Assembly (NCBI RefSeq): GCF_007748035.1
Contig: NZ_CP036278.1
Location: 2,666,001-2,730,000, forward strand
Direction: 5' to 3'
Origin: Aeoliella mucimassa
Lineage (GTDB): Bacteria > Planctomycetota > Planctomycetia > Pirellulales > Lacipirellulaceae
DNA: 64,000 nucleotides
Made by a program: the position numbers and the translations under genes. Positions 9,247-52,733 of the stretch are shown one piece after another. The notes under the pieces are model-generated. The model was not told the DNA's origin and did not search any database. It saw only the letters and a program-made list of their open reading frames with translations. Each line of letters begins with the position of its first letter. Within the stretch, counting starts at the first letter, position 1.

Positions 9247-9364
9247 GATTCCCAATTTTCCCACCGATGGGAAAATTGAATCTTACGTAACTCTATATAA
9301 CCAGTGGTTTTCATTCTCGAATAGATTCCCATTTCCCAAAACGCATTCTATGGGAATCTATTAT
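9247..9364 (+). repeat. dispersed repeat, copy A left part
   Basis: This stretch matches, on the other strand, 52274-52392. The shared core runs through AATTTTCCCA-CCGA-TGGGAAAATT (perfect 10-bp arms, 9254-9277). It continues through an inverted repeat with 13-bp arms AATAGATTCCCAT (9320-9332) and ATGGGAATCTATT (9350-9362) around a TTCCCAAAACGC loop. The alignment was made by eye; identity is high over about 120 nt, with a diverged segment at about 9286-9310. Homology stops at about 9364, where the IS200-type element begins, and resumes at about 9957. Confidence 0.8.
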
Positions 9365-9957
9365 CCAACCGATGGGGTTAGAACCCTCGCCTTCAGGCGA
9401 AACCTTCAGGTTCATATACTACTGGGATGGATAGTTACCGGACTGGAGCACATAGCCGCTTTGATTTGAAATACCATTTCGTGTGGGTCACGAAGTACCG
9501 CAAGGCGATCCTGAGAGGTGACGTCGGGGTACGGGTGCGTGAAATCGTGCGTGAGGTGTGTCGGACGAACGATATTGAGATACTGCAGGGGGCGGTCTCG
9601 GCCGATCATGTGCATGTTTTGTTGTCATGCCCTCCGAATCTCTCGCCCAGCAAGATCATGCAGTATCTCAAGGGCAAGAGTTCGCGAAAGCTTCTGATGG
9701 AGTTCCAGCATCTGCAAAAGCAGTACTGGGGGCGTCATTTGTGGGCCCGCGGGTATTTTGTGGCGTCTAGCGGAAGTGTGACTGAGGAAGCGATCACCGC
9801 GTATATCCAGGGGCAGCGGGGAACGGAGCCCAGCGACGGGGAAGATAACTTCCGCGTAACGCCTTCGTGAGTGAAGGACTTCAGTCCGTAGCTCACGAAC
9901 TCTTCCCAAACCTACCGGCTTCCAGCCGGTAGTAGTTCAGTTTCACGCTGCGCACTT
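9365..9957 (+). mobile_element. IS200/IS605-type insertion sequence (tnpA only)
   Basis: An element of about 590 bp containing only tnpA, bounded by hairpins and interrupting the older dispersed repeat. Left-end hairpins are TCGCC-TTCA-GGCGA (9387-9400) and AACC-TTCA-GGTT (9401-9412). The right end has a long stem TTCGTGAG (9864-9871) / CTCACGAA (9892-9899) enclosing GGAC-TTCA-GTCC (9876-9887), then a perfect CTACCGGCT-TCC-AGCCGGTAG (9912-9932). Exact ends are set only by comparison with the uninterrupted repeat copy near 52.26 kb, so they are good to about 10 nt. There are no long terminal inverted repeats and no obvious target duplication, as expected for this family. Confidence 0.75.
9427..9870 (+). 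CDS. tnpA: IS200/IS605 family transposase TnpA (Y1 HUH)
   Basis: Single-strand DNA transposase of 147 aa, a normal family length. The HUH motif is H61-V-H63 (SADHVHVLLSCPP) and the catalytic tyrosine is Y126 (EAITAYIQGQ). The helix motif IMQYLKGKSSRKLL and WARGYFVASSGS are typical of IS200 TnpA. The frame is intact, so the enzyme may be active. No tnpB or iscB partner is present. The stop codon lies inside the left arm of a strong stem (9864-9899), which may be both right-end recognition structure and transcript end. Confidence 0.92.
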   Translation: MDSYRTGAHSRFDLKYHFVWVTKYRKAILRGDVGVRVREIVREVCRTNDIEILQGAVSADHVHVLLSCPPNLSPSKIMQYLKGKSSRKLLMEFQHLQKQYWGRHLWARGYFVASSGSVTEEAITAYIQGQRGTEPSDGEDNFRVTPS

Positions 9958-10284
9958 ATCGCAAGTCGTTGTGTGCGAGTGAGTTACGACAACCCCTCCT
10001 TCAAAGTTGCCCAAAATAGATTCCCACCGGTGGGAAACTATTTTGTGAGGATTCAGGGGTCAGGGGAAGGAGCTTCCTTCGACGCAGCCCCACCACCGCT
10101 TTGGACAACCGCGCAGCAGCGAACCCGGGCACACACGAACCATCGCCTGCGCACCGCTAGTCGTTCGATTTATCAGACAAGCATCACATAACGCAGCCTC
10201 CTCTCACCAAAAAGCCAAAAGCCGATAGCCTCACATTCCTGTCCATTAGAACACCATTGGTGGCCAGTTCCAATCATAAATGGC
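9957..10284 (+). repeat. dispersed repeat, copy A right part
   Basis: Resumes the repeat at ATCGCAAGTCGTT (9958-9970), which matches 52262-52250 inverted, and continues to about 10284. Well-matched blocks are the palindrome CAAAATAG-A-TTCCCACC / GGTGGGAA-A-CTATTTTG (10012-10045), GGAGCTTCC (about 10069-10077), CCCCACCACCGCTTT (about 10089-10103), CGCGCAGCAGC, CGAAC-ATCGCCTGCGC, and TCCATTAGAACACCAT (10242-10257) followed by GGTGGCCA. The short ORF 9973-10191 lies inside it and is not believed to be a gene. Confidence 0.8.
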
Positions 10285-23204: not shown

Positions 23205-23520
23205 GGGTAATTCGCCGCGGCTCCATCCGTCTTGGCAAGTCAGGGCAAAAAAGTTCTGTCTCCCCCACGAATGGGGTGGCCAAAAATCGTTGTTGAATCC
23301 GCTTGGTGATCTGATCTAATGATGTGTAAATGTATAGGTGTTGGAGCCGTAAAGCTCTGCGAAGGAACTCGAAAGGATCAGGTGACATGTGGACCAAACG
23401 CCAACTCAGCCCGATGATAAAGCCCCCACTCGCTTTTGGGGAGCTGGCACTTGCGTTCCGACTCTTCCTTGTAAGTCATGGCTGGGGTGGAAGTTGCGTC
23501 GAGTGGTGATGACGTAAGAA
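23205..23520. other. intergenic stretch without recognisable gene
   Basis: Between the palindrome and the terminator at 23521 I see no coding potential with planctomycete-like codon use and no strong structure. Confidence 0.5.
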
Positions 23521-23558
23521 TTGCCCCCACCAATCGATTTTGTGGCAAATGGGGGCAA
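23521..23558 (-). terminator. stem-loop after the last gene of the long leftward run
   Basis: Perfect arms TTGCCCCCA (23521-23529) and TGGGGGCAA (23550-23558) with a 20-nt loop. Read leftward only TTCTT follows. It lies 9 nt past the leftward stop, the right place for a terminator. Confidence 0.55.
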
Positions 23559-23566
23559 AACAATCG

Positions 23567-51842: not shown

Positions 51843-52392
51843 AGCCCATTTTTCGCTGGGAATTGGCCACCGATGGTGTTCTAATGGATAGGTGTTGGTG
51901 GCTGTCGGCTCTTCGAGGATTGGAGGTGATTGCGATGTGATGATTGTTTTGAACGCGAACGAGCTAGAGACGCGCAGGCGAATGTTCGGTTGCGCGGGCG
52001 TTTGCTGCTGCGCGCTTTGGTAAAGCGGTGGTGGGGTTGCATCGCTGGAAGCTTTATTGGCTCTAGGATTTAGGCTGTAAGCGGTAGGCTGAGATCTTTC
52101 AGTCGCCGGAAGCTCCTTCAAGATGACATCCCCTACCACCTGTCCCCCGAGTCCTGTTTCCTGACTCCTCCCAAAAATAGTTTCCCACCCATGGGAATCT
52201 ATTTTGGGCACATTCCGTGGAGGTGTTGATGCAACTCATTGCTGACAAACGACTTGCGATAGATTCCCATCGCGAAAATAGATTCCCACTCGATGCGTTT
52301 TGGGAAATGGGAATCTATTCGAGGGCGAAAACTGCTTGTTTTGTAGTGTGGGCGAAGATTCAATTTTCCCATCAGTGGGTAAATTGGTAATC
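51843..52392 (-). repeat. dispersed palindrome-rich repeat, copy B (uninterrupted)
   Basis: About 550 bp that matches copy A (9247-9364 plus 9957-10284) in reverse orientation. Order is preserved along the whole length, with several diverged or gapped segments. Internal structures are AATAGATTCCCA (52277-52288) / TGGGAATCTATT (52308-52319) and the imperfect palindrome around TTTCCCACCCATGGGAA (about 52180-52198, flanked by CCAAAAATAG and CTATTTTGG). It has GATTCCCATCGCGA at the exact place where copy A has the IS200-type element. The 209-codon frame 52211-51582 crossing it is judged spurious. Confidence 0.8.
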
Positions 52393-52733
52393 TATTTGCA
52401 AGCGGTGGGAATCTATCTCGTTGGGGTAGGGAAATCGGACTCCTGCGGGGGGCTGCGCCTAAAGGGGCACCTGGCTAAGCAAGGGATGAGAGTATGGAAT
52501 TCGGATGCGAATCGCCGACTGGATCTCAGTTCACCCTCGTGCGGCTAACACATCCATGGGAGAAGCTTCGCTTCAGGCGAAAAACCTGGCTGGGTAGATT
52601 GAGAGCCTTGGAGGGGGCCGAGGGGAGTGCGGAATACCGATTTCCCCGGAGAATAATGGCAGTTTCTGTCAGTCCCTCAGTTGACAATGGTGACCTTTCT
52701 AGGGGTTGGTCAGAAAAAAAGGGAGATTTTTCC
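52393..52733. other. intergenic stretch between repeat copy B and small ORF
   Basis: No convincing gene, tRNA or strong stem is seen. The TTCCCA/TGGGAA words of the repeat stop at about 52420 (AGCGGTGGGAATCTAT), so the repeat may extend about 30 nt further than the aligned part. Confidence 0.4.

Follow-up and report, generated by a model that had tools for sequence, protein, structure and literature searches.

An intergenic, non-coding superfamily of hairpin repeats with a promoter-like end in the Aeoliella mucimassa genome

Introduction

The bcr repeats of the Bacillus cereus group, like other large intergenic repeats, are large, lie between genes and are possibly transcribed. REPs are described as short sequences (20-40 bp) that carry a GTAG or CGTC tag (PMC3733652). 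In REPINs the REPs are conserved and the spacers less so (PMC3116915), and REP-type repeats are reported as hot spots for the insertion of insertion sequences (IS) (PMC1525189). For class 3 TnpA_Y1, a group known mainly from Planctomycetes, Acidobacteria and Proteobacteria, atypical high-copy structures outside the GTAG type have been described (PMC6006769). Several ISs of the ISKra4 group insert upstream of promoters, 13-17 bp from the -35 (PMC3942029).

Here we describe a repeat from a window of 64,000 nucleotides, the whole stretch of A. mucimassa DNA that was analysed. It shares its abundance and palindromic character with REP-type repeats and differs from them in layout.

Results

Two copies of the repeat in the window

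A sequence-only reading of this DNA had described an old dispersed repeat interrupted by an IS200-type element, with an empty-site copy on the other strand. Reading both stretches confirmed that copy A (9247-9362 and 9943-10284) is collinear with the reverse complement of 51843-52392, within copy B. Because MAFFT on both whole stretches misaligned the left part, the two copies were aligned by eye, and nine IS copies were used to place the IS ends. The features of the two copies are:

9247-9282, plus strand: copy A, hairpin 2 (GATTCCCAATTTTCCCACCGATGGGAAAATTGAATC region), left part of the head; read from the sequence, conserved in 84 aligned copies
9299-9311, no strand: copy A, dyad AACCAGTGGTTTT; hairpin 2 is at a constant distance of 48 bp in 83 of 84 aligned copies
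9320-9362, plus strand: copy A, hairpin 3, arms AATAGATTCCCA / TGGGAATCTATT; 0 mismatches in 24 arm bases (locus L036)
9363-9942, plus strand: IS200-type insertion sequence, inserted 3' of TCTATT; nine copies compared, Y1_Tnp
9427-9870, plus strand: tnpA of the IS200-type element, 147 aa; PF01797, NF033573
9943-10284, plus strand: copy A, continuation of the repeat 3' of the IS; from the sequence and the IS ends
10015-10042, plus strand: copy A, hairpin 4; 0 mismatches in 24 arm bases (L036)
10245-10273, minus strand: copy A, promoter-like end reading into the element, -10 TCTAAT at 10245-10250 and -35-like TTGGAA at 10268-10273; from the sequence and the type I profile
51843-52420, minus strand: copy B, uninterrupted type I element; from the sequence and BLAST
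52357-52392, minus strand: copy B, hairpin 2; from the sequence
52277-52319, minus strand: copy B, hairpin 3; from the sequence
52176-52203, minus strand: copy B, hairpin 4; from the sequence
51856-51885, plus strand: copy B, promoter-like end reading into the element, CTGGGA-N18-TCTAAT, -10 at 51880-51885; from the sequence and the type I profile

The nine IS copies set the IS at 9363-9942, correcting the right border of 9956 given earlier. The gap had also been taken as filled exactly, with 16 bp lost from copy A. Instead, TCACGCTGCGCACTTATCGCAAG after the IS aligns in diverged form with TTCGCGATGGGAATCTATCGCAAG of copy B, and the insertion removed no repeat bases. Nor do the two loci form a pair of occupied and empty sites, copy B being a paralogous copy and not an allelic empty site. 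The proposed order of events does hold: the 84 aligned copies of the repeat are at most 94.7% alike whereas six full IS copies are 98-100% identical to that of the window, indicating that the IS is younger than the repeat.

Similarity between A and B is not confined to short words. The TTCCCA words singled out earlier are present, but they are more than stray matches and form the arms of conserved hairpins. Allowing one mismatch, AATAGATTCCCA occurs 11 times in the window against 0.14 expected.

A family of about one hundred copies

BLAST with copy B found at least 40 places in the single-contig host genome (G000; 6.61 Mb), the query included, with E values up to 2.7e-86 and 254 to 550 query bases covered; of 198 first-look candidates, 40 were scored and all 40 matched. 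The 3' motif CCATTAGAACACCANNGGTGGCCA, with up to three mismatches, occurs at 108 host places (67 forward, 41 reverse), and its reversed control at none. From 109 extracted motif matches, 105 were kept after filters on motif start and flank, and 84 copies were aligned full-length. Among the 105, the second match in L089 is due to chance and L085 lies on a type II head. Model R1 revealed further copies, so the family total is above this extracted sample.

We also viewed 25 further rows, four of which were chance motif matches (the second in L089, two in L021 and the second in L035). In 16 of the 21 true left-out copies, those interrupted by an IS included, hairpin 3 or hairpin 4 has 0-1 mismatches in its 24 arm bases. 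L053 and L098 have an intact hairpin 4 with hairpin 3 different or shifted. Of the other five, L085 and L054 carry type II hairpins, and in L055 an IS110-type element (L206) separates the right end from its head. For the right ends at L088 and L104 a head was absent from the neighbouring 1.9 kb; headless copies thus exist.

None of the 84 aligned copies overlaps a gene called by simple codon usage. The repeat was also rejected as a coding gene itself: any given frame is open in at most 15 of the 82 heads, and codon periodicity is absent. The left neighbour is co-directional with the promoter-like end in 44 of the 84 copies, opposed in 37 and not called in three. Along the chromosome, the 100 positions listed of the 108 places are spaced at random (CV 0.84; random range 0.83-1.20), which rules out evenly spaced chromosome sites.

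The ends of the element were compared between copies. By eye the left end of type I is sharp, except for 0 to at least four AATAGATTCCCA iterons ahead of the head. These iterons are spaced about 20-21 bp apart and number up to at least four (e.g. L013, L076 and L115). On the other side, 62 of the 105 copies have further 3' flank in common with another copy, three of them solely via the same nested ISKra4 IS. The full unit of 550 bp suggested earlier is not the whole element, since the 3' flank and the left iterons extend further. Copies A and B are two of about 100 copies of one intergenic, non-coding family, bearing out the claim of an old dispersed repeat.

The head of the element

In the consensus layout, a left head with hairpins 2, 3 and 4, the dyad AAAACCAGTGGTTTT and conserved unpaired blocks is followed by a right half with heptamer-like tracts and then the right end. 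The head is 225 bp long, and its length and hairpin arms are almost constant across the 84 aligned copies while its spacers have drifted. Distances between neighbouring anchors of the head are identical in 80-83 of the 82-84 copies that have both anchors; in the right half they vary (sd 16-31). The tracts of the right half, for example AGCCGAT, GGGATTC and TACAGCC at 51880-52170 of the window, are of variable length, and one of them resembles a simple repeat in the genome of another family (L122).

Head columns fall into two groups across 82 copies, 114 of the 225 being at least 98% conserved and 66 less than 90%. Mean column conservation is 0.978 in the arms and 0.848 in the rest of the head, a contrast that is partly circular because the arm set was taken from the consensus fold; the two-group split is free of this circularity. 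Per copy there are 1.7 changes across the 84 arm columns, compared with 20.4 across the 66 free ones. The copies are not recent: from any of the 82 to its nearest relative the free-column distance is never below 0.152, and the best pair among the 84 is 94.7% alike over the whole element. Almost no compensatory change was seen in the type I arms, a pattern more in keeping with recognition of the sequence than with an RNA fold. The consensus fold also joins an iteron with the third word in a helix that would close the type I head; this helix is poorly kept among copies and we do not believe it. Judged by the criteria for MITEs, the head is dyad-symmetric and the whole element is not, with no target-site duplication or parent element identified.

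The promoter-like end

On the opposite strand and towards the head, the right end reads TTGAAT-N16-TCTAATGG and is promoter-like. It takes the form cgCTgGgAAtTGGCCACCngTGGTGTTCTAATGG in 107 type I right ends, a few of which are probably chance matches, and is like CGCTTGAAT-N16-TGGTCTAATGG in other sub-families and in the same-genus genome G003. At 13 right ends outside type I, found with a pattern of which TCTAAT is itself part, the best-scoring -35 window is placed 16-17 bp away; it agrees with TTGACA in four of six positions in eight cases and in three of six in five. Consensus promoter scans called nothing at the right ends of A or B because TCTAAT has C, not the required A, at position 2 of the -10. 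In the transcript direction no terminator was found except weak matches at hairpin 4, which occur in both directions. Each copy probably has its own predicted promoter, and the constancy of this end suggests that an RNA is made.

An ISKra4-family IS (NF033572, 269.8 bits; cut-off 205) provides a further view of this end. It is 1510 bp long and present in nine host copies (L168-L176), all nine with a 9-bp duplication. In eight of the nine left flanks the best-scoring -10-like hexamer lies 49-50 bp from the left end of the IS (mean score 9.39); the ninth (L174) has a slightly better site elsewhere (9.0, compared with 8.5 at 49-50 bp). None of 400 random and none of 400 intergenic sets reached the mean score of the nine flanks, and the five flanks outside repeats gave the same result; the score was written after the pattern had been seen, and four of the nine flanks are copies of the same end. 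The right flanks have no common offset. Three copies lie at the right ends of type I repeats (L171, L173 and L176) and one at that of a diverged member (L169). Outside the repeats, L168 is just upstream of a tRNA-Pro gene and L172 at TTGACA-N17-TACTAT. ISs of the ISKra4 group are known to choose promoter sites; this IS is thus an independent marker of the promoter-like end.

Related sub-families with other arm words

A further element of the window differs from A and B in its arms:

23268-23566, minus strand: type II element, arms TTTTGCCCCCA / TGGGGGCAA; R2 match at 23449-23561, 99.4 bits, E 3.3e-18, the locus being one of the 10 building rows of R2
23293-23320, plus strand: promoter-like end of the type II element, TTGAAT-N16-TCTAAT; from the right-end profile, window row

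Judged by sequence, type I belongs to a superfamily whose other arm sequences occur in the same genome and in the sister species G003. The arm word is TTTTGCCCCCA in type II (host genome), TTGCCCCAA, TTGACCCAA, GAGTAAATTCAC and others in G003, and TTTTGTCGCAG in G001. The loop AAAACGATYCG and the type II CGTAAGT words vary far less between sub-families than the arms. CTTACG/CGTAAGT were considered as covarying helices and rejected, being mostly constant words. From hairpin A to a hand-picked centre end there are 110-113 bases in 18 of 22 members, the others having 105, 109, 123 and 129.

Model R2, built from 10 superfamily members, gave at least 63 matches in the host genome among 96 candidates scored, second-strand matches of the same head included. 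It often matches both strands of one head; the head is therefore a pseudo-palindrome. In G003 there were nine matches at seven places. One weak match in G001 (E 0.003) was judged real by its hairpins, and one in G013, without hairpins by eye, was judged not to be a full element.

The right end CATTAGACCA-N29-TGGCCA, searched with N20 to N34, occurs six times in the host genome and four times in G003, with a length of 45 bases in every case. A single 36-base match in G051 was judged to be chance, and the reversed control of the pattern matched once each in G001 and G042. Twelve GGGAATCTATT loci outside the copy list are further, mostly diverged versions of the same architecture, one of them (L216) close to type I. 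Hybrid heads were seen at L207, L211 and L217. Their outer hairpin words are those of type I and their inner words those of another type, as though one arm word were giving way to another.

Distribution

R2 was run on 39 genomes, host included, and had no match in 35 of the 38 relatives; at E 0.001 it matched three of 246 genomes of the order (the host, G003 and the one match in G013). Type I is narrower still. BLAST with copy B matched two of 39 genomes, the host and, through a simple repeat, G030, and R1 matched only the host among 43 genomes of the family (72 candidates scored there). Searches of three same-genus genomes gave no type I element. The exact hairpin pattern matched twice in 84,980 species genomes, a set from which the host and very near genomes are possibly absent, both matches being chance palindromes by eye, and did not occur in viral contigs. 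Within the sets searched, type I (arms AATAGATTCCCA) is found only in the host genome.

Rfam gave no match in the window at gathering thresholds and none at E 0.1 for three representative loci (L001, L219 and L231), and a known structured RNA was rejected on this ground. This agrees with the earlier statement that no named family has this layout. A literature search by title, with subscription journals outside its scope, returned nothing recognisable as describing this repeat family.

Nested insertion sequences

The tnpA gene in copy A encodes a Y1 HUH transposase (PF01797, E 5.5e-44; NF033573, 158.3 bits, cut-off 55). Besides the six full copies of this IS, the host genome has three that are internally deleted. 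TCTATT or TCTTTT (TCTWTT) precedes the left end in all nine, and no target duplication was seen by eye in the seven whose right flank was viewed. Five of the nine lie inside type I repeats (copy A, L142, L143, L145 and L147) and a sixth (L148) abuts a type II head: the IS200 has entered the repeat repeatedly. The host genome contains 591 occurrences of GGGAATCTATT (control, 1), so the repeat offers many IS200 targets.

Other ISs were found within the repeats. An IS110-type element, its transposase confirmed as IS110, is nested in L187, L189, L191 and L193. L190 and L206 contain a second element, which was assigned to the IS110 type by eye, and L188, L192 and L205 a further IS that has GGCCTTGTTGA ends. 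The repeats serve as landing pads for several kinds of IS.

The host genome has 13 Y1 matches, nine of which are the IS200 element, and no type I words occur at the four other Y1 loci. A RAYT (TnpA_REP) was considered as mobiliser and rejected, with no consistent link and only one of these four genes near a head. At that locus (L159, about 1322459-1323353 of G000) the Y1 transposase gene is some 0.5 kb from a type II-like head, possibly by coincidence.

Discussion

The reading we prefer, to which we give about an even chance of being right, is that A and B, both of type I, belong to a non-coding, intergenic, non-autonomous mobile superfamily, probably small transcription units whose head is under selection. 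Copy number, intergenic position, the rigid head, arm conservation, the superfamily and the IS positions are observed, and transcription, selection in place, the binding protein and mobility are inferred. One end is promoter-like, of the form T.GA.. - N16-18 - TGn TCTAATGG, and reads into the element; the other is a rigid head of two or three hairpins sharing one arm word per element. Most likely the arms are recognised by a sequence-specific protein, either a recombinase or a host protein that binds DNA or RNA, and this protein would change with the sub-family. The hairpins of an element have the same arm word and switch it as a set between sub-families; a single sequence-specific partner, acting at the DNA or RNA level, accounts for this best. 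No transposase or binding protein has been linked to the repeat, and no target-site duplication of the repeat established. Type I would have multiplied in this lineage, and its copies, now old, may have had their heads kept by selection; ongoing turnover could be an alternative cause of arm conservation. The IS200-type IS enters at TCTATT of the hairpin arms and the ISKra4-family IS upstream of the promoter-like end, and two IS110-type elements and one further IS nest in the elements as well.

Its strongest competitor, which we consider somewhat unlikely, is a dead repeat akin to a MITE or REPIN, copied by some transposase and now functionless, with arms conserved via functional masters. Many of our observations suit it: the high copy number and intergenic position, the patchy presence (35 of the 38 relatives lack an R2 match), the many nested ISs and the headless right ends (L088 and L104). 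REPINs as described also have conserved REPs and less conserved spacers (PMC3116915). However, dead copies should lose their arms as fast as their spacers, and here the 84 copies include no recent ones (best pair 94.7%) yet have nearly unchanged arms, as do 16 of the 21 others. Arm conservation in such old copies counts against a dead repeat.

We regard as doubtful the more elaborate proposal of multi-copy structured RNA genes resembling bacterial SINEs. These would have their own promoter and a rigid multi-hairpin 3' domain and be mobilised in trans, with an arm word swapped wholesale between sub-families and species and co-evolving with a binding protein, and at least 100 of them would be active in one genome.

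A third possibility is that the heads are DNA-level protein-binding sites with a role in the chromosome (nucleoid, segregation or an origin-like array), the right end being a second protein site and not a promoter. Several arm words per head at fixed spacing, the dyad symmetry of the type II-like head, the near-absence of compensatory change within type I and the lack of a fixed gene orientation would all be expected of such sites. We nevertheless find it improbable: the 100 listed positions are random (CV 0.84), absence of type I from the three same-genus genomes searched is odd for a core function, and the ISKra4 IS treats the right end like other promoter-like sites. Least probable is a cis-regulatory cassette that would act on the neighbouring gene as a mobile promoter or attenuator. 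The promoter-like end points through the hairpins towards the left neighbour, but the lack of orientation bias (44 co-directional, 37 opposed and three not called of 84) speaks against a cis-promoter.

If the preferred reading of a mobile superfamily of small transcription units is correct, about 1% of the genome (estimated from some 105 copies of 575 bp in 6.6 Mb) would be a promoter-bearing family with heads under selection. The hairpin words would be replaced from one species to the next, with loop, centre and promoter retained, so that partner and target could be traced across one genus. ISKra4 positions would likewise offer a marking of promoters from sequence alone in a poorly studied group.

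Two of the ISs can be compared with their families. That of copy A resembles the IS200/IS605 family in its Y1 transposase, an inverted repeat near the right end, a fixed motif 5' of the insertion and no duplication seen, and we found no feature in the window IS that departs from it. The ISKra4-family IS has the NF033572 transposase and inserts upstream of promoter-like sites as several ISs of the ISKra4 group do; it lies about 26-27 bp from the -35, roughly one helical turn further than the 13-17 bp described for the group (PMC3942029).

For the repeat itself no described system is a full match. The structures described for class 3 TnpA_Y1 flank a tnpA gene and have a CnGA foot (PMC6006769), whereas no such gene link was found here. 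From the bcr repeats it is set apart, by description and not by sequence, through its swapping arm words and rigid head. Closest are REP, BIME and REPIN repeats with their RAYT, which it resembles in high copy number, intergenic position, palindromic form, conserved arms, looser spacers of set length and attraction of ISs. It works like a REPIN-type population, yet a GTAG/GTGG foot, looked for in the four bases before hairpins 2, 3 and 4 on either strand, is present in 0 of 84 copies, and no RAYT consistently flanks it. In place of a short tagged REP, the repeat has a multi-hairpin head of 225 bp and a promoter-like end.
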